Assembly: GCA_903896015.1 (NCBI GenBank)
Contig: CAITWF010000038.1
Location: forward strand, 1 to 37,230
Direction of reading: 5' to 3'
Source of the DNA: an uncultured Opitutia bacterium
Lineage (GTDB): Bacteria > Verrucomicrobiota > Verrucomicrobiia > Opitutales > Opitutaceae
Length of the DNA stretch: 37,230 nucleotides
Position numbers and translations under genes: made by a program. Below, piece by piece: positions 22,650-36,102 of the stretch (the first letter of the stretch is position 1; each line of letters starts with the position of its first letter). A model generated the notes under the pieces. The model ran no database searches. It worked only from the letters and a program-made list of their open reading frames with translations, and was not told the DNA's origin.

Positions 22650-25442
22650 ATGCACCCCTCGTTCAACTACATTTCGGCGGACTACCTCGCGGACTACTTT
22701 CAGCCCACGGCAGATGACCCGACAGTCTTCCAACCCAGATATCACGGAAAACTTCGCACTGTGCTCGATCTGCCAGAGCTAGTCACCCGCGAGTCTCTTC
22801 TGCGCGTCGCGAATTTTCTGCACCCGGCGACCAGGGAGACCCTTCGCAGCCGCAAGGGAACGAATGTCGCCTTCGGTTACGTGCTCCCGGGCGGCAAGTC
22901 GACCAGCCTTGTCGCCATGGCCGACGTGCGGCTCATCGATCACTTCGCCCTGACGCACGCAAAATTCCTCGAGGAGACCATCGAGCCATTGATCGAAATC
23001 AACGAGGCGGCCTCGTGTCGCTCACCCGAACCGACCGGCGAGATGCTGGCCATTTCTCGCAATGAAATGTTCAATCGCGACGGAGAACTCTTCCTTCATA
23101 TGGATTTGGCGATCATCGCACTCACGCGTAACCCAAGTGACGTCCGGTGGCGTGCGGCATCCATCGCGCGCATCGATTCGGAAATTGTTCTGCTACGTCA
23201 GGCTTTTAACACGTTGTGGGCCCGGGAGCGGGCCAAACTGGGGTATGTCGACCTCGTCCGCCATGCCGACGGACAATGTGTTTCGCTGGATTGTGCCGAG
23301 ATTCCGCCCGCGATGCGACGCCGCCAGTGCAACCGGAGCGACGCAATTTGCACCCGCGCCGCGAACGACGTGAGTGTGAGAAGAACCGAAGTGTTCATGA
23401 CCGAGGCCCAGGCTCAAGAGGCCGCGGCCCGGCGGCGCCACGAGATCGCGTCAGAATGGGCCCGTCCGTCCAAGCACACGCGCACCGAGTTCACTCAGCG
23501 TTTCTGGAACCAACTGCTGAGCGTCGATCGCGCCGTGTTGGACCGTCTCCGCAGCGCGGCCCCCACCCGCGCGGTGTCATTCTTGGCCCCCACCGAGGTC
23601 GACGAACATGAAGTCGCGAAAGCAGCGCTGATCGCCGCCGCCGAAAAGATCGTGAACGAAGAACGATTCAATGCGACCCAAGGGAAGCAAGTCCCATGGG
23701 CCCTGACCACGTCCCAGTTGCTACTGCGCGCGTTCCATTGCGCGAGCGGCTTGCCCAGCCTCGAAGCCCTGCGCACGGTTTTGCGTCTGTCGTCCGAGGT
23801 GGCCTGTCCGCACCTTCGGCAGCTCCCGGGCGGTCTCTGGGCCACGCCGCGCGGCCAAGCTTGGCTCGATACGCTGGTCCAACTTCTATCCTTGCGCCCG
23901 TATACTCCCGGGCCCTCGGCGATTATCCGGGCCGAGCAGCCCGTCGGCTATTTCAGCGGCTTTGTCGGTTTGCGCATAAATCACCTCGACGTTAAGTCCG
24001 CCAAGACTCCGCTGCAGCACGTGCCGTGGGAGACGCTGATTAGGGCCAGCCGGGCGGAGCCTGGGCAACTCGTCGTGTGGGGTCAAAATCGGTGGATTCG
24101 CACCCAGGGTCTCACGGGCACGCACCCTGAGCTCAATGCCTCCGATGAGTGGTCGCCGCGCGCCGCGCAGGATTCCGGCCCCGCCAAGCCGGCCAAATCC
24201 AATCCGCTGGTGCTGGTCGCATTGGGGGACCCGAACCTGTTTATTCACCCGTTTCTGCGCAGGCTTAGTGAGTTCAGTCAGGACACCCGGATCATCCTTA
24301 CGGAGAAGCAGGGCGAGGTGGAGGCCCATCGGTTCGACGCGGTCCCGAGCTTGCTGGAGTATTTGGCTGAGCATCATGCACTGGTTTTGAAAACGACAGC
24401 ACGGACGAAAACGGCGGACCGGAACGTCCATCATCGGCTCTACGCGGCCCAAGTGACGGCGCCTCCCGGCACCATCGTCAACCAGTTGATCGACGCCGGC
24501 CGGGTCATCTTTCGCTCCGAGGCCTCCCCGCGCGACACGCAGCTGGCCCGCGTCGTGGCGGCGCGTCGCGCCGGGCGCACGAGCACCGTCTTGGTCGCGA
24601 GCCAAGCCGAGGCTGACCACTGCAACGCCCAGATCCACGCCGCGCTGTTGCCCGATCACACCATCGAATTCGCGACGTTGCGGTCCGCCACCCCCCACCT
24701 CGAGGCGGCCTTCGCCCGCGGCCGGCTTCCCTCCGCCGCTTATCCGCTGGCCGTGAAAGCGGCGAATCGCCTCCCCACCGGTCTTCCCTGCGGCTCCGTG
24801 TTCATCCTGCGCGAGGTCACTGGCCAACGGCTCGTCGCCACCGACAAGCATTCCCGGCTGACCCTCCTCGTGACCGATGACGTGTGGCCCAAGCTTGTTC
24901 CGCTGGAACGCCGCACGCTGCGCTTGGGCGTGGGAACGTGGGTGACGCCCACTCTCTTCGCCCGCTGCACGGCCGCCAATGGCATGGCGCTCGTCCCCGG
25001 GTATCCCTATCGCATCGTCGAGTGCACCGCCGCGGAAATTCGGTTTGAGAAAGGTCAGGTTCTGCGCGCGGCGGACTACCCCGCCGGCCTGCAGCTCGAC
25101 CTCGCTTACGCCATCCCGCTGCCCGCGAGCGAGCGCCAGTGGCCGAAGCTCAAATTGTTTGAACTCTTTCTGGCGGTTCCGCCCGAGGTCATCGCCCAGC
25201 GCGGCGGCTGGCGGTTCTACCGCGAGTGCGAGTCACATTCCTCCGTGGGCGCGATCCTCGATACCCCCGACCTGTTTACGCTGAAACAAATGCTTGGGCT
25301 CGAACGGCCCGACCCCCACCTCTCACTGACTCCGGCTGCGGTCATCGCTCCGCCAACCCCGCCTCGGCCACTACCCGCCGGCCAATCCCAACCGCGTCCG
25401 GTTTTGGACCGGGCAGTTGAAGCCCTGCGGCCCAGTTTGTAG
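22650..25442 (+). CDS. Catalytically dead MobF/TrwC-like relaxase-helicase homologue
   Basis: This 930-aa protein follows the MobF (TrwC/TraI) layout from end to end. The N-terminal part has YHGKLRTVL then GYVLPGGKSTSLVAM (76-90), matching the family's GYDFTFSAPKSVSL block. AISRN (134-138) and DGELFLHMDL (144-153) stand where relaxases have HxTSR and DPQLHTHV, so two of three metal histidines are gone; H150 remains. In the helicase half no Walker A exists. VLVALGD (521-527) and RIILTEKQGE (547-556) replace the VVDEA Walker B and the VGDxxQ motif III. Later helicase blocks persist: TVLVASQAEADHCNAQIH, QLDLAYA (815-821) and FYRECESHSSVGAILDTPD (856-874). The frame is intact, which argues for a retained non-catalytic role, perhaps DNA binding. 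The tail is Pro-rich. Confidence 0.72.
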   Translation: MHPSFNYISADYLADYFQPTADDPTVFQPRYHGKLRTVLDLPELVTRESLLRVANFLHPATRETLRSRKGTNVAFGYVLPGGKSTSLVAMADVRLIDHFALTHAKFLEETIEPLIEINEAASCRSPEPTGEMLAISRNEMFNRDGELFLHMDLAIIALTRNPSDVRWRAASIARIDSEIVLLRQAFNTLWARERAKLGYVDLVRHADGQCVSLDCAEIPPAMRRRQCNRSDAICTRAANDVSVRRTEVFMTEAQAQEAAARRRHEIASEWARPSKHTRTEFTQRFWNQLLSVDRAVLDRLRSAAPTRAVSFLAPTEVDEHEVAKAALIAAAEKIVNEERFNATQGKQVPWALTTSQLLLRAFHCASGLPSLEALRTVLRLSSEVACPHLRQLPGGLWATPRGQAWLDTLVQLLSLRPYTPGPSAIIRAEQPVGYFSGFVGLRINHLDVKSAKTPLQHVPWETLIRASRAEPGQLVVWGQNRWIRTQGLTGTHPELNASDEWSPRAAQDSGPAKPAKSNPLVLVALGDPNLFIHPFLRRLSEFSQDTRIILTEKQGEVEAHRFDAVPSLLEYLAEHHALVLKTTARTKTADRNVHHRLYAAQVTAPPGTIVNQLIDAGRVIFRSEASPRDTQLARVVAARRAGRTSTVLVASQAEADHCNAQIHAALLPDHTIEFATLRSATPHLEAAFARGRLPSAAYPLAVKAANRLPTGLPCGSVFILREVTGQRLVATDKHSRLTLLVTDDVWPKLVPLERRTLRLGVGTWVTPTLFARCTAANGMALVPGYPYRIVECTAAEIRFEKGQVLRAADYPAGLQLDLAYAIPLPASERQWPKLKLFELFLAVPPEVIAQRGGWRFYRECESHSSVGAILDTPDLFTLKQMLGLERPDPHLSLTPAAVIAPPTPPRPLPAGQSQPRPVLDRAVEALRPSL

Positions 25443-25694: not shown

Positions 25695-27029
25695 ATGCCC
25701 ACCCCGACCAATTCGTGGTGGCGCCCACTTGATCGGCGCCACTGGTTTGTGTTCTCCGTCGCCTCGCTGGCCTGGCTGTTCGACTGCCTTGACCAACAGC
25801 TCTTCAACCTCGCACGCGACGCAGCGATGGAGGACCTGCTGCCCAATAAGCAACTGGCGACCGAATACGGTCCCTACACGACCTCGGTGTTTCTCCTCGG
25901 CTGGGCGGTCGGCGGACTGAGTCTCGGGGCCCTCGGCGATCGGTTTGGACGTGCGCGAATGCTCACGATCGCCGTGCTGATCTATTCGCTCTGCACGGGA
26001 CTGAGCGCGCTCTCCACAAGCTTCACGGATTTTTGCGCGTATCGTTTTCTGACGGGCGTCGGCGTCGGCGGGGTATTCGGTCTCGCAGTCGCGCTCGTCG
26101 CCGACTCGATTCCCGACCAAAGCCGCGCGCCTGCCCTAGGTTTGCTGCAGTCGCTTTCCGCTTTCGGCAACATCACGGCCGGGCTCATTGGGATGTTCAT
26201 TGGCTCGCTCGCCGTGATTCCATTCGGCCTGAAGGCGTGGCAGGCGATGTTCTTGTTCGGCGCGCTGCCCGCCCTGATGAGCGTGCTGATCCTTGGGCGG
26301 CTGAAAGAGCCGGAAAAATGGATCGCGGCAAAAGCGGCGGGGGCCAAGACCGGCGTAAAATTCGGCTCGTATGCTTCACTACTCGGAAATCCGCGCTGGC
26401 GCGGGCGTGCCTGGCTCGGCCTCGCCATCTGCAGCGTCGGCGTGATCGGGCTCTGGGGCATCGGCAACTTTCACCCAAAAATCGTCCGCACAATCGTCGA
26501 AGCCCACCTCGCGGGCAAAGGCCTCACGCCGTCGGCGCTGGCCGGCGAGAAGGCGTTCTGGAGTTCCGTGGCGCTCCTGCTTCAAAATGTCGGAGCCTTT
26601 TTCGGCATGACCGTGCTCGCCAATGTCGCCCAGAAAAAAGGCCGCAAACCCGCCTTCGCGATCGCGCTGTTGCTTTCCTTCGGCTCGACCGTGCTCGTGT
26701 TCAAGGGCCTGCGCGAGTTCAGCCAGATCTTCTGGATGATCCCGCTCATGGGTTTCGGCCAACTCTCGATCTTCGCGCTCTACTCGATCTACCTGCCGGA
26801 ACTGTTTCCCACGAGCCTGCGGAGCACAGGGACAAGCTTCTGCTACAACGTCGGCCGTATCGTCGCCGCCACGGCGCCCTTCACGATCGGCGTCATCACG
26901 CGGCGTCTCGGCGGTGACATCGAGGGGTTTCGCACTGCCGGGCTGTGGGTGAGCCTCGTGCTCGTCGCCGGCCTGCTGGTCGTGCCCTTTCTCCCCGAGA
27001 CGAAGGATCAGCCGCTGCCCGAAGAATGA
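25695..27029 (+). CDS. MFS transporter
   Basis: This 444-aa protein has about twelve membrane spans. Motif GALGDRFGRARM (about 77-88) is the loop 2-3 signature of the major facilitator superfamily. RFLTGVGVGGVFGLAVAL and the LPELFPTSLRSTG segment resemble those of sugar and organic-acid porters. Its stop overlaps the ATG of the cytochrome gene by four bases, so the two are translated together. In this neighbourhood it probably imports a degradation product, such as an amino sugar or organic acid. The 250-bp gap before it holds no recognised promoter. The substrate cannot be read from sequence. Confidence 0.9.
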   Translation: MPTPTNSWWRPLDRRHWFVFSVASLAWLFDCLDQQLFNLARDAAMEDLLPNKQLATEYGPYTTSVFLLGWAVGGLSLGALGDRFGRARMLTIAVLIYSLCTGLSALSTSFTDFCAYRFLTGVGVGGVFGLAVALVADSIPDQSRAPALGLLQSLSAFGNITAGLIGMFIGSLAVIPFGLKAWQAMFLFGALPALMSVLILGRLKEPEKWIAAKAAGAKTGVKFGSYASLLGNPRWRGRAWLGLAICSVGVIGLWGIGNFHPKIVRTIVEAHLAGKGLTPSALAGEKAFWSSVALLLQNVGAFFGMTVLANVAQKKGRKPAFAIALLLSFGSTVLVFKGLREFSQIFWMIPLMGFGQLSIFALYSIYLPELFPTSLRSTGTSFCYNVGRIVAATAPFTIGVITRRLGGDIEGFRTAGLWVSLVLVAGLLVVPFLPETKDQPLPEE

Positions 27030-29593
27030 AACGCTGGGTCCGCTCACGTTTGCCGGCTGGATTGTTTCTGGCGCTCGCCGTCAGCGCCGCCGCGCAAATC
27101 GGTGACAAGCTCGACAAGCCGGGCGAGGTGCAAAAGTCACTCGTGCCCGCTGAGCAAATTCCGCCGGCGCCGGTGCTTTCGCCGGAGGAGGCGTTGAAGT
27201 CGTTCCAACTCGCGCCTGGCCTCCGACTCGAACTGGTCGCGTCCGAGCCGCTCGTGCAGGACCCGGTCGCTATTCAGTTCGGGCCCGACGGACGCTGCTG
27301 GGTCGTCGAAATGCGCGGCTACATGCCCGATTTCGAGGGCAGCACGGAGGACGCGCCGGTCGGCCGGATCGTCGTGCTCACCGACACCGACGGCGACGGA
27401 CGCTACGACAAAAGCGATGTGTTTTTGGATCATCTCATTCTGCCGCGGGCGCTGTTGCTCGCCGGCGACGGCGCGCTCGTGGGCACGCCCCCGTTTCTCA
27501 AATTCTGGCGCGATACGAACGGCGACGGCGTGGCCGACACGTCGGTCCTCGTCGCAGACGACTACGGCGTTCAGGTCGATCCCAAGCGCCCCGAGCTGGC
27601 AAACCCCGAGCGTGCTCCCAACAGTCTGCTCTGGGCGCTCGACAATTGGATCTACAGCGCGGCCTACACGAAAAAATTCCGCTTCGTGCACGGCGCGTGG
27701 CAGACCGACACCACGACGTTTCGGGGGCAGTGGGGCCTGAGCCAGGACGACTTCGGCCACCTTTTTCACAACTCCAACAGCGATCAGCTTCGCGCCGACG
27801 TCCTTCCGTCGCGCTATCTCGGGCGCAATCCGGATTTTCCGCGCGCCGCCGGCTCCAACGTCCTCGTTCCCGCGAACCAGCTCGTATGGCCCGCGCGCGT
27901 CACCCCCGGCACCAACCGCGCCTACCGGCCCGAGACGATGCGCGACGGAAAGCTCAAGGAGTTCACCGCCGCGTGCGCGCCCTGGATCTATCGCGGCGAC
28001 GCGCTGCCCCCCGAATTTTTCGGCAACGCGTTTGTCTGCGAACCCGCCGCCCACCTCATCAAGCGCAACGTCGTCACCGCCGACCACGGCACGCTAAAAT
28101 CGAAGGAAGCCTACGAGCGCCAGGAATTCCTGGCATCGACCGACGAGCGTTTCCGGCCGGTCAACCTCGCCACCGGTCCCGATGGCGCGCTTTACATCGT
28201 GGATTTCCACCGCGGCGTGATCGAGCACCGCATTTCCCTCACCAGTTACCTTCGCAAGCAAGCGGAGGACCGCAACCTGATCGCACACCAACACCTCGGC
28301 CGGATTTTTCGCGTGGTCGCCGACGGCGGGGTGCCGAAAAAATTTGCCCGCCTCGATCACGCCTCATCCACCGAACTGGTCGGTGAACTCAGCCAGCCCA
28401 ACAGCTGGCGCCGTGAAACCGCGCAACGCCTCCTAATCGAGCGCGGCGATCCGGCCGTCGTGCCGGCGCTCCGCGAACTCGTGCTCCGCGGACCCGTCGC
28501 CTTCGGTCGGCTGCACGCCCTCTGTGCGCTCGATGGACTCGATGCGGCGAACGCCGCCACCGTATTCGGTGCGCTGGCCGACGCGGAGCCGTTTGTGCGC
28601 ACGGCCGCCATCCGGCTCAGCGAGCCACTGCTCGCCGGCGACGCACGCGCCGCCACGCTGAAAAACCTGCTCGCGCTTACGCGCGATCCCGCTCCCGAGG
28701 TGCAGCAGCAGTTGGTGCTCACGCTCGGCGAAGCTCGCGATCCCGCGATCGATGCGGCGGCGGCCGCGATGGTGCGCGACTCCGCCCAGACGGCCTTTCT
28801 CGCCGATGCGTTTTACTCGGGGCTCTACGGACGCGAGTTGGTGCTGCTCGAGGCGCTCGCGCGTGATCCTGCGTGGGCGGACGAGGAAGCCGGCAACAAA
28901 CTCCTCGGTGGCCTCGCCCGCGGCGTGTTCAACTCCCGGCAGCGCGACGCGGCCGAGCGCGTGCTCGCGTTGATGGCGCAGAGTTCGCCGGCGCGCACGC
29001 TTGCGTTGCTCTCCGGAGCGACCGCTTCCACCGCCGTCACTGCGGCCAAGCCACTCAAGTTTGCCGCGGAACCCGCCGCTTTGGTCACACTCCGAAAAAT
29101 TACCGGGAAAACTCCGCAGGCCGTCGTCGCTCGGCTTGAGCGGTCGCTCATCTGGCCCGGCAAACCCGGCGTCGCGCCCGAGGTGCCCGTGCCGCCGCTC
29201 AGCGCCGCCGAGCAAGAACGGTTCGAGCGCGGCCGCACGCTCTACGCCGGCGTGTGCGGAGCTTGCCATCAGGCCCACGGACGCGGCCTCGACGGTCTCG
29301 CGCCCCCGCTCGCCGACTCCGAGTGGGCGAACGGTACAGCCGCTCGCATTGTCCGCATCGCTCTCCGCGGCGTGCGCGGACCGCTCAAGGTGGACGGCCG
29401 CAGCTACAATCTCGACATGCCCCCGTTCGGAGTGCTCAGCGACGATCAGATTTCCGCCCTGGTGACATATGTTCGCCGCGAGTGGGGTAACACCGCCTCA
29501 CCCGTCACGCCGGAATTTGTGCAGGGTGTCCGCACCGCAATCACCGCGCACGGCGAACCGTGGACGCAGGAGGAACTCCTGAAAATCCCCTGA
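27026..29593 (+). CDS. Secreted PVC-type dehydrogenase/c-type cytochrome
   Basis: From the ATG at 27026 (ATGA overlap with the transporter) this is 855 aa. It has a signal peptide (MKRWVRSRLPAGLFLALAVSAAAQ), a large N-terminal beta-propeller typical of PVC membrane-bound dehydrogenases (VQDPVAIQFGPDGRCWVVEM, DTDGDGRYDKSDVF, GPDGALYIVDFHRG), a helical HEAT-like region, and a C-terminal cytochrome c domain with CGACH (C744, C747, H748) and a distal Met in MPPFGVL. The family is expanded in Planctomycetes and Verrucomicrobia. It is thought to oxidise sugars or polyols in the periplasm and pass electrons on. Its physiological substrate here is unknown. A second copy of the family lies on the opposite strand at 30758. 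Confidence 0.92.
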   Translation: MKRWVRSRLPAGLFLALAVSAAAQIGDKLDKPGEVQKSLVPAEQIPPAPVLSPEEALKSFQLAPGLRLELVASEPLVQDPVAIQFGPDGRCWVVEMRGYMPDFEGSTEDAPVGRIVVLTDTDGDGRYDKSDVFLDHLILPRALLLAGDGALVGTPPFLKFWRDTNGDGVADTSVLVADDYGVQVDPKRPELANPERAPNSLLWALDNWIYSAAYTKKFRFVHGAWQTDTTTFRGQWGLSQDDFGHLFHNSNSDQLRADVLPSRYLGRNPDFPRAAGSNVLVPANQLVWPARVTPGTNRAYRPETMRDGKLKEFTAACAPWIYRGDALPPEFFGNAFVCEPAAHLIKRNVVTADHGTLKSKEAYERQEFLASTDERFRPVNLATGPDGALYIVDFHRGVIEHRISLTSYLRKQAEDRNLIAHQHLGRIFRVVADGGVPKKFARLDHASSTELVGELSQPNSWRRETAQRLLIERGDPAVVPALRELVLRGPVAFGRLHALCALDGLDAANAATVFGALADAEPFVRTAAIRLSEPLLAGDARAATLKNLLALTRDPAPEVQQQLVLTLGEARDPAIDAAAAAMVRDSAQTAFLADAFYSGLYGRELVLLEALARDPAWADEEAGNKLLGGLARGVFNSRQRDAAERVLALMAQSSPARTLALLSGATASTAVTAAKPLKFAAEPAALVTLRKITGKTPQAVVARLERSLIWPGKPGVAPEVPVPPLSAAEQERFERGRTLYAGVCGACHQAHGRGLDGLAPPLADSEWANGTAARIVRIALRGVRGPLKVDGRSYNLDMPPFGVLSDDQISALVTYVRREWGNTASPVTPEFVQGVRTAITAHGEPWTQEELLKIP

Positions 29594-29600
29594 GCACCAT

Positions 29601-30761
29601 TTACTTCGTGGCCGGCACCGCAATGACATCCAGAGAAAACACGCGTCCCGTGCGGCCGAAGGCCTCAACGCCGATCGCCGACGCGGCCGGAGCGCGCATC
29701 GGATCAAAATATACGCCGCGGATGTCGCCGAGCAGCGCCCGCGCCTTCGCGTCGCCAAGATAATACGTCGCCTTAACAAGCGTGCGATAACTCCCGCCCG
29801 ACTCGAACAGCGCAGAGCCGACCCGCTCGAACGCCGTCTTCAGTTGCGCACGCGCATCGCCATTTTCGTCACCTCCGAGTTCGCCCACAAAGATAAGCGG
29901 GGTCCCCGCCGCAACCTCGACCACGTGGCTGTAGCGTGGCGACTTGTTAAGCCAGGGCAGCGCGGAAAACGCGAGCGTGTCCCCAGCGATCGGAGGCCTG
30001 CCGTGCGCCGACACGACCAGTTCGATTTCGGCAAACAGATCGCTCTGCCACTCGACCAACACGATCGGCGGAGCAGCGCCGCCGAAACTAGCGGAAATTT
30101 CCCGCTCCGCTACAGCGCTGTCACTCATCGGACGGACGAACGCCTTTACCTGCACCACGTCGTCCCCGGTCAGTCTGAGATGGGCAAGTGTGCGTTGCAG
30201 ACCGGCCATCGTCAGCCGCACCGCCGCGCCGAGGTCTGGTCCTTTTTCGGCCTGACCAGAAACAAAAAGTTTGGCCCCGGCCGGAAGAACCGCCGCGCCG
30301 AGCCCCGTCTTGGCCACCTTTTCGGCGGAAGCAGTCGCAACGGAAACGGCTTCAAAAGCCACCTGCGCGCCCGTTCGTGGAAGTCGCGTCCGCACCAGCG
30401 TAAACGCAACCGGCGTGGCGCCGAATCGAGCCGCCATGGCACGGAAAGCAGCCCCGCCCGCCGCTTCGTTAGTCGCGTAGGCGGTCAACCGCACTACCCG
30501 CGCGGCGTCGCTACCCGATTTTTCCAGTATGGCACTCAGAGCGTCGAGCGCTCCCGCCGCCTGTTGGTCGGCATCCCCGTCCGACCGCCCGGAAAAAATC
30601 TGCGCGGTAAAGACGAGTGGCGCGTCCCCCACGCGCACGCCGAGCGAAGTGCCGTTCGGACTCGGACCGACGCGCTGAATCAACGCTGGTGCGGGTTTCG
30701 GCGTCTGAGCGCAGAGTGGAAGTGCGCCCGCAAACAGGAGGATGGAGGCGAAGCCTTTCAT
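29601..30761 (-). CDS. Secreted protein with three RidA-like domains
   Basis: This 386-aa protein has a signal peptide (MKGFASILLFAGALPLCAQT). Three repeats follow, at about 47-143, 160-254 and 285-384, each with the RidA (YjgF/YER057c) pattern: a strand (VFTAQIF, LFVSGQA, IFVGELG), a helix with LDALSAIL / LQRTLAHL / FERVGSALF, VVRLTAY / VVQVKAF / LVKATYY, then closing strands. RidA enzymes are trimers of one domain, so this chain probably makes a trimer-like unit by itself. The arginine that holds the imine substrate in RidA is replaced in each repeat (A119, V234, A360). So imine hydrolysis is unlikely. Its ATG overlaps the cytochrome gene stop by four bases (ATGA). Confidence 0.85.
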   Translation of the reverse strand: MKGFASILLFAGALPLCAQTPKPAPALIQRVGPSPNGTSLGVRVGDAPLVFTAQIFSGRSDGDADQQAAGALDALSAILEKSGSDAARVVRLTAYATNEAAGGAAFRAMAARFGATPVAFTLVRTRLPRTGAQVAFEAVSVATASAEKVAKTGLGAAVLPAGAKLFVSGQAEKGPDLGAAVRLTMAGLQRTLAHLRLTGDDVVQVKAFVRPMSDSAVAEREISASFGGAAPPIVLVEWQSDLFAEIELVVSAHGRPPIAGDTLAFSALPWLNKSPRYSHVVEVAAGTPLIFVGELGGDENGDARAQLKTAFERVGSALFESGGSYRTLVKATYYLGDAKARALLGDIRGVYFDPMRAPAASAIGVEAFGRTGRVFSLDVIAVPATK

Positions 30762-33328
30762 TTGGCGGCCGGGTCGAGTTTCTCAAGCTCGAGATCGGTC
30801 CAGGGCGTGACGCGACTAACGGTGTCCCGCCGCACACGAGCAATATCCGCGGGCGCCACCGCCGAGGCATTATTGCCAAATGATCGGCGCACGAACGTCA
30901 GCACGCCCGCGAGTTGCTCGTCGGTCATCGTGGCCAAGGGGACCATCGGTGCGGGCAAACCCGGCGTGCCCTCCTTGCCCTTCAGCACGATTCGGATCGC
31001 CGAGTCTGGTGAGACTGCGTTGGACCAGCGGCCTTCTTTCAACGTGGGGGCGACACCCGTTTTGCCGAGGCCGTCGGGCTGGTGACACGCAGCGCACAGG
31101 CCGTAAGTGGTGCGACCGGCATCAAACAATGCCTGCTGTTCTGCCGAGAACGGCGCCACCGGCGGCCGCGCAGCTTGACGCGCACGGCGCTGGCGCAGCA
31201 CGGTGACCAGTTCTCCGGCCTTACGCTTCACCATGGCGTCGGGAGCATCACTCGCGAGCTGCGCCAGATTTTTTTCCGGCAGCGTGGCGCCCGCCGACTT
31301 AGTTGCTCCGCGCATCAGCGCGAGCCGATCCAACTGCGGCAACCGCCCATCGCAAATCGCGGCGGCAAGCGCATCGTTGCCGGCCGCACCCGCGCGCGTC
31401 AGATGGACCGCCAGCGTCTCCAGCACCGGCTGCGCTCCGAAAGCCGCGCCGCCGTGCGCCCGAATCTCACCACGCACGCGCTCGAGCACTTCCAGCTCGT
31501 GCCCGCGCAGACCGATCAGCGTGGCGTCGACCAGCGAGGGATGCTCGGCCGCGCGCGGCAGGATGCTCCATAACACTTCGAGCGACGCCGGATCGGTGGC
31601 GCCGCCGAGCGTGAGCGCAAGCTGCGCCAGCACGATTGGCTCTTCAGTGGCAATGCGCCCACGCCAGGAAGCGAGCAGCGGCGCGCCTTGGGGAGAGCGC
31701 AGCCGCGTCTCGCCTGCCTGCAACGCCGCGATGCGCACGTGCGCATCCGCGTCGGCAAATCCCGCGGCCAGGTCAGCGTCGGCGAGCGCGCCCAATCCTT
31801 CCAAGCTCCACAGCGCGATCGCCCGATCGCGCGGCTCGGGCGCGTGCTGCGCGAGCTCGCGCAACGGCACCGCCAAATCGGCGCGACCCGATTCCACGAT
31901 CAGGCGTTGCGCGGTATCGCGCGTCCACCCGTTGGCCGACGTCAGCACCTTTACGAGCGCGGCCGGCTCCGCGTGCGCGAAGTCAGGTGCTTTCGCGCGC
32001 GGTCCCGCCTCGTGCACAATCCGATAAATCCGGCCGAGGCCCCAGAGCGGCGTGTTGAGTTTTCGCGCGATAATCTGATCGCGAAGATAGGTGGTCGCGA
32101 ATTGAAAGCCCTCCAGCATGCCGCGGTAGTAATCGACGACGTAGAGCGCGCCGTCCGGTCCGTTGGCCGTGAAAACCGGGCGAAAACGCTCGTCCGTCGA
32201 CGTGAGAAAATCCGCGCCCGGAGTCGCGTTAAGCGCGGTGAGGCGCCCGTCGGTCTCGGCGATGACATTTCGCTTCACGAGGTTGCCCGCGGGCTCGGGC
32301 ACAAACGCGCTGCCATAATACGAGGCCGGGAAATTCGTACCACGATAAATCACCGGGGCCGACGCCGCCGTGAACGTCGCGAGCGTGCCGTCGTCGCGCA
32401 GCTGGCTTTTCTGGTAGCCGCGATTCACGCCGGGATTCACCCTCGCCGGCCAGGTCGATTGATCAGTGGCGATTTGAAAATTCGCCCCGTGCAGCGGAAT
32501 CCGACGGTCGAGCGTGGCAAGGTAGCGCGACGGCACAAAATCACCGCGCAACTGATCGCTGTTCGAGTTGTAGAAGAGCCGGCCGAAGTCGTCCTGCGAA
32601 ATGCCCCACTGACCCAGCGCCAGCATCGGCTCGCGCTGCCACTGTCCGGCCAGCTTCCGCCAGCGCGACTTGTAGCTCGCGTTGTAGAGCCAGTTGTCGC
32701 GCGCCCAGAGCAGCCCGTTGGGACTCGCCTCGATGTTTTCCGGTGTGCCGTAGTCGTCAGCGAGCAGAACTTTTTCGTCCATCACACCATCGCCGTTGGT
32801 GTCTCGCGTGCGCCACAGATTCGGCGGATCGCCGATGATTACCTCGTCGCCGGCAAACGCGATTGAGCGCGGGACGTTCATTTTATCCCAGTAGACCGTG
32901 CGCTTGTCCATCCGCCCGTCGCCGTCGGTGTCCTCGAGGACAACAATGCGTCCAACCGGGCGCGGCGGCACGGGCTTTCCCTTTTCCAAATAAATCGGCA
33001 GCTCGGTCAGAATTTCCGCGTTGTAGGCCGAAAGCTCCGCGACCCACAGCCGGCCGCGCGCGTCAAACGCCATCGCCACTGGATCGCGCACAAGCGGTTC
33101 GGCAGCGACGACCTCGATCCGGAAACCCGGTGGCAGCACAAAAGATTTGAGCGCCTCCTCGACCGTCAGCACCGGCGCGGCCGGGATCTGGAGCTCGGCA
33201 CTCGGGGGCCTTTGCGGTTCATCGTTCGCGTGATCGCCGAGCTGGGCGAAGCCGCGGAGAGCGAAAAAAAGAGATAGACCGGCGGCAAAAAACGTGAGCC
33301 GGCATTGGGCAGTGGTCGGGGCAAGCAT
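30758..33328 (-). CDS. Secreted PVC-type dehydrogenase/c-type cytochrome
   Basis: From the ATG at 33328 this is 856 aa with a signal peptide (TFFAAGLSLFFALRGFAQ). The N-terminal propeller shares blocks with the plus-strand copy at 27026: DPVAMAFDARGRLWVAEL, DTDGDGRMDKRTVY, GPDGALYVVDYYRG. A helical region and a cytochrome c domain with CAACH (745-749) follow. The two proteins are the same length and architecture but diverged. The stop overlaps the RidA-like gene start, forming a two-gene operon. A TTG at 33367 would lengthen the N-terminus by 13 residues and spoil the signal peptide. It probably oxidises a periplasmic substrate related to the neighbouring amino-sugar pathway. This pairing is inference. 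Confidence 0.92.
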   Translation of the reverse strand: MLAPTTAQCRLTFFAAGLSLFFALRGFAQLGDHANDEPQRPPSAELQIPAAPVLTVEEALKSFVLPPGFRIEVVAAEPLVRDPVAMAFDARGRLWVAELSAYNAEILTELPIYLEKGKPVPPRPVGRIVVLEDTDGDGRMDKRTVYWDKMNVPRSIAFAGDEVIIGDPPNLWRTRDTNGDGVMDEKVLLADDYGTPENIEASPNGLLWARDNWLYNASYKSRWRKLAGQWQREPMLALGQWGISQDDFGRLFYNSNSDQLRGDFVPSRYLATLDRRIPLHGANFQIATDQSTWPARVNPGVNRGYQKSQLRDDGTLATFTAASAPVIYRGTNFPASYYGSAFVPEPAGNLVKRNVIAETDGRLTALNATPGADFLTSTDERFRPVFTANGPDGALYVVDYYRGMLEGFQFATTYLRDQIIARKLNTPLWGLGRIYRIVHEAGPRAKAPDFAHAEPAALVKVLTSANGWTRDTAQRLIVESGRADLAVPLRELAQHAPEPRDRAIALWSLEGLGALADADLAAGFADADAHVRIAALQAGETRLRSPQGAPLLASWRGRIATEEPIVLAQLALTLGGATDPASLEVLWSILPRAAEHPSLVDATLIGLRGHELEVLERVRGEIRAHGGAAFGAQPVLETLAVHLTRAGAAGNDALAAAICDGRLPQLDRLALMRGATKSAGATLPEKNLAQLASDAPDAMVKRKAGELVTVLRQRRARQAARPPVAPFSAEQQALFDAGRTTYGLCAACHQPDGLGKTGVAPTLKEGRWSNAVSPDSAIRIVLKGKEGTPGLPAPMVPLATMTDEQLAGVLTFVRRSFGNNASAVAPADIARVRRDTVSRVTPWTDLELEKLDPAAK

Positions 33329-33449
33329 GGACGGATTTAGCGCATCGGTTCTCGCCGCAAAATTCAATCTATTCGCCTCTGAAAATCACTGATTTTAAAA
33401 AGGGAAACAGGTTGATTCCGCTCCCGTAGGAAAGCACCTTTTCCAGCTC

Positions 33450-34358
33450 GTGAGCGGACTCTTCGATCTTCAGGTCAACGGCTTCGCCGGTGTCGATTTT
33501 CAACGCCCCCTCGGCCGCTCCGATCTGCGCGGCGCGTGCGAGGCGCTGCACGCCCATGGGACGACGCGAATTCTCGCCACGTTCATCACGGATCGCACTG
33601 ACGCGCTCGCGCAAAAGCTCGCCGCGTTCGAGGCGATGCGCCGCGACGACGATCTGATCCGCGACACGATCGTCGGCTATCACCTCGAAGGGCCTTACCT
33701 CAGCGGCGAACCGGGTTACCGCGGCGCGCATCCCGGCGAGCTCATGAAGGAGCCCGATCTCGCGGAGTTTTCGCGCTGGCAAGACGCCGCCGGCGGCGCG
33801 ATTCGGCTCGTCACGCTGGCGCCGGAACGAAACGGCAGCGCCGAGTTCATCGCGGCCGTCACGGCGCGGGGGGTGCGCGTGTCGCTCGGCCACACCGCCG
33901 CCGACGATCGCGAGATTGACGCCGCAATCCGCGCAGGCGCGACGCTCTGCACGCATCTCGGCAACGGCTGCCCCGGCGATTTGCCGCGCCACGACAACAT
34001 CATCCATCGCCTGCTCGCCCGCGACGAGCTGATCGCCTGCTTTATTCCGGACGGCGTGCATCTGCCGCCTTTCGTCCTGCGGAATCTGTTTCGGGCGAAG
34101 CCGCCGGACAAAGTCTTGCTCACCACCGATGCGATGGCGGCCGCTGCCGCTCCGCCCGGACGATACACGCTCGGCGCGCTTGAAATGGACGTGGGCTCGG
34201 ATCGCATCGTGCGGATGCCTGGGGCCAAGAATTTCGCCGGCAGCGCGCTCACGCTCGACACGGGTGTAGCCAACGCCGCCGCATGGCTCGACCTCCCGGC
34301 CGAACGAGCGCACGAACTTGCCTCGCTCGCGCCAACCCGCGCGCTCGGGTTCGACTGA
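33450..34358 (+). CDS. nagA: N-acetylglucosamine-6-phosphate deacetylase, short form
   Basis: This 302-aa amidohydrolase begins at a GTG (MSGLFDLQVNGFAGVDF). Motifs are HLEGPYLS (a metal-ligand glutamate), SLGHTAAD (histidine), THLGNGCPGDLP (histidine), FIPDGVHL (histidine) and LLTTDAMAAAAAP, whose Asp is the catalytic residue of NagA. It lacks the roughly 50-residue N-terminal beta-domain of classic NagA, so it is about 80 aa shorter. No upstream start could restore it, since a stop lies 54 bp before. It removes acetate from GlcNAc-6-P in the cytoplasm. nagB lies two genes downstream, so the pair feeds fructose-6-phosphate. A GTG start with no clear ribosome site is noted. Confidence 0.88.
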   Translation: MSGLFDLQVNGFAGVDFQRPLGRSDLRGACEALHAHGTTRILATFITDRTDALAQKLAAFEAMRRDDDLIRDTIVGYHLEGPYLSGEPGYRGAHPGELMKEPDLAEFSRWQDAAGGAIRLVTLAPERNGSAEFIAAVTARGVRVSLGHTAADDREIDAAIRAGATLCTHLGNGCPGDLPRHDNIIHRLLARDELIACFIPDGVHLPPFVLRNLFRAKPPDKVLLTTDAMAAAAAPPGRYTLGALEMDVGSDRIVRMPGAKNFAGSALTLDTGVANAAAWLDLPAERAHELASLAPTRALGFD

Positions 34359-34365
34359 TTTCCTC

Positions 34366-35349
34366 ATGCACCCAAAATTCCTCGCCCTTCTGTTGGCATG
34401 CGCGCCGGCGTTCCTGCGTGCCGAACCCGATCTGAAAATCGGGATCATCGGCCTCGACACGTCGCACGCGCCGCAGTTTGCCAGCATCCTCAATAACCCC
34501 GCCGACAAGGCGCACCTAACCGGCGCGCGCGTGGTGTGCGCATTTCCAGGCGGCAGTGCCGATGTCGAGGCCAGCGCCTCGCGCGTGAAGGGCTTCACGG
34601 CCGATGTGCAGAAAAAATACGGCGTCGAGATCGTCGGCTCAATCGCCGAGGTCGTGGCGCGCAGCGACGCCATCATGATCCTGAGTGTCGATGGCCGCGC
34701 GCACCTGCCGCAGGCGCGCGAGGTGTTTTCCTCAGGCAAGCCCGTGTTTATCGACAAACCATTTGGCGGCAACCTGCGCGAGGTGCTCGAGCTCGCGGCG
34801 CTCGCGCGCGCGACCGGCGCGCCGGTGTTCAGTGCGTCGTCACTCCGCTACAGCCCCGGCGTCCAAAAGCTCCGCACGGAAAAGATCGGCCGCATGCTCG
34901 GCGCAATTTCCTACGGTCCCGCGCACCTTGAGCCTCACCACACCGATCTCTTTTGGTATGGGGTGCATGCGACGGAGGCGCTATTCACCGTCATGGGCAC
35001 CGGCTGCGACACCGTCAGCCGCACGCATACGACCGACACCGATGTCGCGACCGGCATATGGCACGACGGACGGACCGGCGTCGTCTACGGATTTCGCGAG
35101 GGCAAGGCGCTCTACCGCGTGACCGTGATCGGCACCGAGGCCATCCGCGATCAGCCGGACGGCCGTGAATATGCGGATTTGCTGAAAGAAATCCTCACGT
35201 TTTTCCGCACGCGAAAATCCCCCGTCCCGCTTGAAGAGACGATCGAGATCATGGCCTTCATGGAAGCGGCGGATGAGAGCAAGCGCGCCAATGGAGCGGC
35301 GGTCGCGCTCAAGGATGTCATCGCCAAGAATTCCCCTTTGCATCCCTGA
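34366..35349 (+). CDS. Secreted-looking Gfo/Idh/MocA-type oxidoreductase
   Basis: This 327-aa protein has a signal-peptide-like N-terminus (MHPKFLALLLACAPAFLRAE), then a Rossmann start LKIGIIGLDTSH, a second-strand segment, and DKPFGGN in the place of the family's EKP motif. It ends in a C-terminal alpha/beta domain with HHTDLFWYGVHATEAL, where a histidine often acts in catalysis. Members of this family use NAD(P) to oxidise sugars. A secreted member would need to carry its cofactor, usually through Tat export, but no twin-arginine is visible. The gene is 7 bp after nagA and 3 bp before nagB. It is likely to handle an amino-sugar or related derivative, but the substrate is not known. Confidence 0.82.
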   Translation: MHPKFLALLLACAPAFLRAEPDLKIGIIGLDTSHAPQFASILNNPADKAHLTGARVVCAFPGGSADVEASASRVKGFTADVQKKYGVEIVGSIAEVVARSDAIMILSVDGRAHLPQAREVFSSGKPVFIDKPFGGNLREVLELAALARATGAPVFSASSLRYSPGVQKLRTEKIGRMLGAISYGPAHLEPHHTDLFWYGVHATEALFTVMGTGCDTVSRTHTTDTDVATGIWHDGRTGVVYGFREGKALYRVTVIGTEAIRDQPDGREYADLLKEILTFFRTRKSPVPLEETIEIMAFMEAADESKRANGAAVALKDVIAKNSPLHP

Positions 35350-35352
35350 ATC

Positions 35353-36102
35353 ATGAGCCAGCTCAACGTCATCACCTCCCCCGATCGCGCGACCATGGGC
35401 CGCGCCGCCGCGACCCATGCCCGCGGCCTGCTGGAGAAAATTCTCGCTGCCCAGCCGCGCGCGCGGGTGATCTTTGCCTGCGCGCCCTCGCAGGATGAAT
35501 TTTTGGAGAATTTCGTGGCGCAGGCCCGGAACCTCGACTGGTCGCGCGTCACCGTCTTCCACATGGACGAATACGTCGGGCTCGCCGCGACGCATCCGGC
35601 CAGCTTCCGCAATTACCTTCGGGCCCATCTGCTCCAGCATCTCACCCCGGGCGAGTTTCACTCCATCGGCGGCGATGCGGCCGACGCGGCCGCGGAGTGC
35701 CGGCGTTACGCCGCTTTGCTCGACGCCGCGCCCATCGATCTCATCTGCCTCGGGATCGGCGAAAATGGCCACATCGCCTTCAACGATCCGCCGGTCGCGA
35801 ATTTCGATGACCCGGTCTCGGCCAAGATTGTCGAACTCGATCACACGTGCCGTCAGCAGCAGGTAAACGACGGGTGCTATCCCACACTGGCCGCCGTGCC
35901 CACGCACGCGATCTCGCTCACGATTCCGGTGTTTCGCCGGGCGAAAAATCTCAGCGTCGTCGTGCCGGGCCCACGCAAAGCCGCCGCGGCCCGCGCCACG
36001 CTGCGGGATCCGATCGCGACCGCCTGCCCCGCGACGATCCTGCGTCAGCACCCCGCGGCAACGCTGTTTCTCGATCGCGACTCCGCGGCACTGCTTACCT
36101 AA
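35353..36102 (+). CDS. nagB: Glucosamine-6-phosphate deaminase
   Basis: This 249-aa protein has the NagB signatures FHMDEYVGL (with the catalytic aspartate), GIGENGHIAFNDP and VPTHAISLTIP. The length matches the family. It converts glucosamine-6-phosphate to fructose-6-phosphate and ammonia in the cytoplasm, the step after NagA. Start at the ATG 3 bp after the oxidoreductase stop, so it is in the same operon. The C-terminus lacks a long extension, as in the NagB forms without allosteric tails. It pairs with the MFS transporter and the short NagA to point to GlcNAc or chitin-derived sugar use. Confidence 0.93.
   Translation: MSQLNVITSPDRATMGRAAATHARGLLEKILAAQPRARVIFACAPSQDEFLENFVAQARNLDWSRVTVFHMDEYVGLAATHPASFRNYLRAHLLQHLTPGEFHSIGGDAADAAAECRRYAALLDAAPIDLICLGIGENGHIAFNDPPVANFDDPVSAKIVELDHTCRQQQVNDGCYPTLAAVPTHAISLTIPVFRRAKNLSVVVPGPRKAAAARATLRDPIATACPATILRQHPAATLFLDRDSAALLT

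Follow-up and report, generated by a model that had tools for sequence, protein, structure and literature searches.

RidA proteins, such as E. coli RidA/TdcF and B. subtilis YabJ, are cytoplasmic. Chains built of several YjgF-like units also occur in the so-called Toblerone enzymes, namely in cyanuric acid hydrolase and chorismatase. The active site of TdcF is composed of Tyr17, Ser30, Asn88, Arg105 and Glu120, as described in the available passages of PMC5979572. Here the arginine is the residue that binds the substrate carboxylate (PMC4433059, in the passages available). In the same 2015 paper by Niehaus et al., the 3x-RidA proteins (e.g. EF_0115 from Enterococcus faecalis V583), with three tandem Rid units in one chain, are presented as presumed covalent trimers. 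The passages further describe the subfamilies Rid4-Rid7, which lack the catalytic arginine, are thought not to hydrolyse imines and have unknown functions. These subfamilies keep the glutamate, with a Trp in Rid4 and Rid7 and variable residues in Rid5 and Rid6. A last relevant member is OngD, a Rid protein essential for growth on GlcNAc1A, for which the available passages of PMC9537276 state that the role is unknown.

The window analysed here, a DNA stretch of 37,230 nucleotides from an uncultured Opitutia bacterium, encodes a Rid protein that resembles several of these systems in part. Its gene can be subdivided as follows:

29601-30761, minus strand: triple-Rid open reading frame including the stop (P0001), 386 amino acids, assigned by Pfam and AlphaFold2
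30687-30761, minus strand: signal-peptide-like N terminus (residues 1-25), with the hydrophobic stretch ILLFAGALPLCA after MKGFAS; pLDDT under 50
30324-30686, minus strand: Rid unit 1 (residues 26-146), the least conserved unit; Arg105 slot Ala119, Glu120 slot Ala135
29994-30323, minus strand: Rid unit 2 (residues 147-256); Arg105 slot Ile233, with Ser168 (Ser30), Glu245 (Glu120) and Glu247 (Glu122) kept
29604-29993, minus strand: Rid unit 3 (residues 257-386); Arg105 slot Ala360, Tyr277 tentatively equivalent to Tyr17

The part coding for the 386 amino acids occupies positions 29604-30761 of the minus strand. Three fused RidA-like domains had been proposed for it in the first-pass annotation, and this is borne out by PF01042, by shuffle z-scores and by three-unit AlphaFold2 models. 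PF01042 was the only family returned by the Pfam scan (77.5 bits against a cut-off of 27.3, E 1.1e-21), which places the protein in the Rid superfamily. Three stretches were matched at a limit of E 1 and two at 0.001, unit 2 being the weakest, and the same family was matched at E 0.001 in all nine members of set A2. When compared to E. coli RidA, units 1, 2 and 3 reached z-scores of 10.2, 5.7 and 5.9, respectively, each beating all 300 shuffles. Between the units, similarity was detected for units 1 and 3 (z 6.0) and for units 1 and 2 (z 4.1); the shuffle test revealed no direct similarity of units 2 and 3 (z -0.2). The family profile also matches the solved structure of YjgH (1pf5) at positions 156-252, corresponding to the region of unit 2 (E 2.8e-4). 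With TIGR00004, a model for the RidA subfamily, the protein scored 49.5 bits, below the curated cut-off of 106.25.

The whole chain was modelled with AlphaFold2. A run with six sequences gave a mean pLDDT of 82.7 and a pTM of 0.86, with the Rid secondary structure appearing three times, and in a second run, headed by a homologue of 46% identity, the two values were 81.3 and 0.85. Of the five models per run, the weakest was poor both times (51.0 and 53.3). Both runs predict a Rid fold with an internal repeat, as the first reading had anticipated. In VIA-align, the model matched Rid chains at Z values reaching 16.7 (115 residues, 2.9 A), and AtRidA at Z 15.6 (101 residues, 1.4 A). The matches of single RidA chains cover model residues 26 to 384. 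From this span it appears that the N-terminal strand of the model may complete unit 3, thereby closing the ring. Overall, the internal repeat and the Rid fold are well supported.

For the comparison of individual residues, the units were aligned to E. coli RidA (L081) and 32 family members were aligned, leaving out two partial sequences (L076 and L079); the 31-row conservation analysis and the tree also exclude L078 (26% identical). The positions equivalent to Lys73 are Arg91 (30 of 32), Gln204 in unit 2 and Lys330 (31 of 32), and those equivalent to Glu122 are Glu137, Glu247 and Asp378, position 137 being acidic in 31 of 32 members and position 378 in all 32. According to the available passages of PMC4960622, the trimer of AtRidA is held together by the corresponding Lys-Glu bridge. 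A built-in trimer, as first suggested, is supported by the two confident models and by these partly kept interface charges.

The protein, which starts with MKGFASILLFAGALPLCAQ, is predicted to be exported, with the periplasm, the outer membrane or the outside all being possible final places. The description as a secreted chain agrees with the signal-like N terminus and with a hydrophobic 12-mer (mean Kyte-Doolittle of at least 1.9) in the 45 residues ahead of the first strand, which was found in 28 of the 32 family members (the others being L055, L066, L016 and L078). In the homologue L012, a lipobox-like ITIGCS can be recognised by eye. The accompanying generalisation that RidA acts in the cytoplasm has to be qualified, as the genome of the window also encodes a single RidA whose N terminus looks signal-like by eye and which keeps the arginine (KTARSTVG). 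Export alone is therefore not peculiar to the triple-Rid protein. This single-unit protein (L018:1279-1788, plus strand, on contig C86 of genome G000) is a natural control for the triple-Rid protein; its gene begins about 30 bases past a flavin amine oxidase gene (PF01593, L018:3-1244).

Matches to the triple-Rid protein at E 1e-15 were found in 35 of 252 genomes from the taxonomic family of the window (Opitutae), the window included and some being fragmentary. A draw from the order yielded 6 of 372 genomes, all from this same taxonomic family, and a draw from the phylum yielded 1 of 387 at E 1e-12 (1 of 288 with a single-sequence query), namely the genome of the window. An architecture widespread among PVC bacteria was not found, this sample of the phylum matching the window's own genome only. 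The genome G624, from the same genus, gave no triple-Rid match, and the five relatives that carry a name are metagenome-assembled genomes from Verrucomicrobia/Opitutae. As far as genomes were drawn, the family is patchy and confined to this lineage. A chance or artefactual reading frame is ruled out by the Pfam match and by over 30 conserved family members. A plasmid search with the triple-Rid query gave two records, with RidA-type matches covering just 22-28% of the query. A second multi-unit Rid-like protein of about 400 amino acids is encoded in the window's genome (L080:8741-9940, minus strand, contig C16 of G000). It has no evident signal peptide and carries LPASTGIGA at the RidA arginine position (by eye); two of its stretches match in one search and one passes in another.

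In the window, the Rid gene is surrounded by the following genes:

30758-33367, minus strand: DUF7133 / PVC-type heme-binding CxxCH protein, 869 amino acids, immediately upstream, with its stop codon overlapping the start of Rid (ATGA)
27026-29593, plus strand: second DUF7133 cytochrome, its gene converging on Rid; ATG 27026 is the likely start (26945 in the ORF listing)
25695-27029, plus strand: MFS transporter, by profile matches
33450-34358, plus strand: NagA-like deacetylase, divergent from the cytochrome-Rid pair; TIGR00221 at 187.2 bits, cut-off 225.65
34318-35349, plus strand: Gfo/Idh/MocA-like oxidoreductase, weak profile match, orthologue cluster C4; signal-like N terminus by eye
35353-36102, plus strand: NagB-like sugar-phosphate deaminase, best match 128.5 bits, all below cut-off

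The ATG at 27026 of the second DUF7133 gene overlaps the stop of the MFS gene (ATGA). Among the 25 NCBIfam models listed for the transporter, those for aromatic-acid and sialate symporters score best, with none reaching its cut-off. A TrwC-type relaxase reading frame (PF08751, window 22650-25442, plus strand) lies on the same strand as the MFS gene, some 250 bases upstream of it, and is a possible border of a mobile element. A promoter scan of 29400-33700 found none (0.6 expected), and the eight terminator-like sites in this region (5.1 expected) are uninformative.

The first-pass annotation had coupled the Rid protein to a PVC-type cytochrome and called for a search for the same architecture next to such cytochromes. 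The coupling stands for the window and for L012 (46% identical), which has the gene order of the window without NagB and the same ATGA overlap of Rid and DUF7133. A DUF7133 gene also lies upstream of Rid in L066 and downstream of it in L013, where the Rid gene is near the contig end, with the far side unseen. As a general partner, however, DUF7133 was ruled out: it is found near the Rid gene in only 4 of the 34 loci, and the stretches fetched around three further DUF7133 homologues (53-57% identity) contain no triple-Rid gene. A DUF7133 orthologue with at least 66% identity was found in 3 of the 252 family genomes, including that of the window, and the Rid gene adjoins it in each. Chance adjacency is unlikely: assuming 30 DUF7133 copies per 5,500 genes, about 0.36 cases are expected among 33 loci and P(>=4) is about 5e-4, a rough estimate that ignores kinship and fragments. 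On the tree, the DUF7133 label requires at least two changes, and neither of the two context labels is more clustered than expected at random (values as low arose in 139 and 147 of 500 shuffles). In a search of solved structures, the DUF7133 cytochrome was matched at its cytochrome c end only, for which reason a substrate could not be taken from them. One unrelated paper was found on DUF7133. For the planctomycete-specific cytochromes (PSCyt domains) of Verrucomicrobia, an action on carbohydrates is suspected, with no known function, in the passages available of PMC5615132.

To describe the wider context, the 41 match places in the 35 genomes were reduced to 34 places in 31 genomes, the other seven being fragments or partial. 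Neighbours were counted with tblastn (E 1e-20) over the whole length of the fetched stretches, which run up to 20 kb (37 kb for the window); names were derived from domain matches (TetR by eye), and many loci are cut by contig ends. Counted in this way, TonB receptors occur in 15 loci, Ceramidase_alk in 12, DegT in 8, TetR, Gfo/Idh and sulfatase in 6 each, NagA-like and NagB-like in 5 each and DUF7133 in 4, and no neighbour family is universal among the 34. The Ceramidase_alk association (L014, L016, L053, L054, L055, L058, L059, L060, L063, L067, L072 and L076) is thus broader than that of the cytochrome. Part of the association could be due to chance, because both families are multi-copy in these genomes, with 2 to 21 Ceramidase_alk matches per genome (ten genomes) and 6 to 52 DUF7133 matches (four genomes). 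The loci L016, L067 and L072 form a divergent branch with genes for DegT, Ceramidase_alk, heparinase II/III and a DAO-type FAD oxidoreductase nearby. Overall, the wider context is the use of carbohydrates and amino sugars. Since the substrates of NagA and NagB are phosphorylated sugars of the cytoplasm, the connection of these two enzymes with an exported Rid protein is indirect.

The active-site positions set the protein apart from RidA. The slot of Arg105 is occupied at position 119 by Ala in 31 members and Val in one, at position 233 by Ile (12), Leu (11), Val (7), Ala (1) or Cys (1), and at position 360 by Ala (31) or Ser (1). The arginine that marks the RidA subfamily is thus absent from all three slots in all 32 aligned members, the window included. 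In an alternative alignment of unit 1, residue 120 fills the slot (14 Val, 9 Phe, 4 Leu, 3 Tyr, 2 Ala), likewise without Arg. A replacement by Ala, Val and Ala had originally been read; the loss and both alanines were correct, but the slot of unit 2 holds Ile233, and the Val corresponds to the next residue (Val234) or to the family variant. The Glu120 typical of RidA is retained solely in unit 2 (Glu245, 32 of 32), units 1 and 3 having no Glu there in any of the 32, and Glu247 is conserved in all members. Ser30 is represented by Ser168 in unit 2 (31 of 32) and by Thr52 in unit 1. Asn88 is absent in the protein of the window; within the family, Asn occurs in unit 3 of six members and in unit 2 of one. 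The candidate equivalent of Tyr17 is Tyr277 in unit 3 (21 Tyr, 11 Phe), which needs a two-residue shift relative to the aligner's column. Furthermore, Glu237, Trp238, Arg348, Arg356 and Ser361 are each found in 31 of 32 members, and Arg326, Lys330, Arg348 and Arg356 are near-invariant in unit 3.

Conservation is distributed unevenly over the chain. Positions with one residue in at least 90% of the 31 rows number 14 of 107 in unit 1, 25 of 105 in unit 2 and 32 of 123 in unit 3, the near-invariant share in units 2 and 3 being about twice that of unit 1. This favours one constrained region in units 2 and 3 over the three different sites that had initially been imagined. In AtRidA, the glutamate near the ligand is supplied by the subunit adjoining that of the arginine (PMC4960622, in the passages available), so a site formed by Glu245 and unit 3 is possible.

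Compared to the described systems, the protein shares fold and sequence family with RidA, and the Lys73- and Glu122-type interface positions are largely kept. It differs from the single-unit RidA with its Arg105/Glu120/Asn88 site in having no Arg and Glu120 in unit 2 only. Three tandem units in one chain are common to the protein and 3x-RidA. The latter, however, is described as a subset of RidA, whereas the units of the window fail to show the RidA arginine; moreover, 'periplasm' and 'signal peptide' are absent from the text of PMC4433059, and the window's protein has a signal-like N terminus. The lack of the catalytic arginine is shared with Rid4-Rid7. Judged by the passages on these subfamilies, however, Ala/Ile/Ala and a glutamate in one of three units differ from them, and only unit 2 (Ile233, Glu245) fits. 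OngD is similar in being a Rid protein that is needed to use an oxidised amino sugar and whose cluster includes TonB-dependent receptors, and it differs as a single unit of 127 amino acids for which the passages of PMC9537276 mention no export signal. By analogy, OngD may be taken as a precedent for a Rid protein in the use of oxidised amino sugars.

The early remark that known imine chemistry is improbable appears consistent with the role of the arginine in the available passages of PMC4433059. In RidA, the arginine that is missing here binds amino-acid imines by their carboxylate, which makes an uncharged substrate probable. Our preferred reading, tentative at a probability of roughly 0.36, is that of an exported built-in Rid pseudo-trimer with one altered site, which would act in the cell envelope on an uncharged intermediate derived from sugars. 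The three units would close into the usual Rid barrel, with unit 1 being chiefly structural and the cleft between units 2 and 3 serving as the working site. Glu245 of unit 2 would act as general acid/base, as Glu120 does in RidA, together with polar residues of unit 3. The substrate might be a reactive intermediate, for example a sugar imine, enamine, enol or lactone, that is produced by one of the cluster's exported enzymes (an oxidase, deacylase or dehydrogenase) and that the Rid protein would hydrolyse or tautomerise before it causes damage. In the window, this intermediate would come from the DUF7133 cytochrome, and in other genomes from other enzymes.

Nearly as likely, the protein could be a non-catalytic exported pseudo-trimer that binds ligands or proteins, with all three RidA sites dead, for instance a holdase or an assembly partner for exported oxidoreductases. 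The missing Arg105 in every unit, the missing Glu120 in units 1 and 3 (32 of 32), the Asn88 that is not kept and the partners differing between genomes all fit this explanation, and the available passages of PMC4284807 report chaperone activity for chlorinated E. coli RidA. Against it, Glu245 and Glu247 (32 of 32) and Ser168, Glu237, Trp238, Arg348, Arg356 and Ser361 (31 of 32 each) are kept, which is a hint and no proof. More doubtful is a reading as a new exported Rid branch, in which fusion would have let two of the three sites decay and left one arginine-less composite site. This site would act on an uncharged intermediate that derives from sugars and is set free by oxidoreductases of the envelope, PVC-type cytochromes among them. 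It is rather unlikely that the protein is an imine/enamine deaminase for charged substrates, in which Arg276, Arg326, Arg348 or Arg356 would have replaced Arg105: Arg356 (31 of 32) does precede the former slot by four residues, and Arg348 (31 of 32), Arg326 (30 of 32) and Arg276 (24 of 32) are frequent, but the model has Arg326 in a turn that leads from helix 303-320 into strand 328-335, and Arg276 is missing in 8 of 32 members. Finally, other hydrolase chemistry on the Toblerone plan is very improbable, for although chorismatase and cyclic-amide hydrolases are the best Foldseek hits by E-value (4e-10 and up), whole-chain superposition is poor (TM-score only 0.2-0.3, rmsd 16-21 A), no sequence match was found, the 53 PDB sequences hit by the family profile including no protein of this kind, and single Rid chains align well instead (Z values given above). 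Toblerone chains are also not seen among the 50 VIA-align matches listed, which does not argue against them.

The tandem 3x-RidA proteins and the arginine-less Rid subfamilies have both been known since 2015, as the passages of PMC4433059 show. In a limited literature search, the passages found described no exported, arginine-less or verrucomicrobial triple Rid protein, and tandem fusions appeared only in that paper. What is new is the combination, the export and the uneven decay of the units. The triple-Rid family is genuine, conserved and exported, and it is new in combination and not in kind.

Once three subunits are fused, sites related by symmetry can evolve independently, and the triple-Rid family displays retention (units 2 and 3, with one glutamate) against loss (the arginine of every slot). 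It also ties an arginine-less Rid protein to envelope carbohydrate-use clusters and, in a few genomes, to a PVC-type cytochrome. Its substrate would inform on the functions of both the arginine-less Rid proteins and the PVC-type cytochromes. If the reading as an exported branch were true, there would be a Rid activity dedicated to carbohydrate oxidation in the envelope, providing a handle on the products of these cytochromes.
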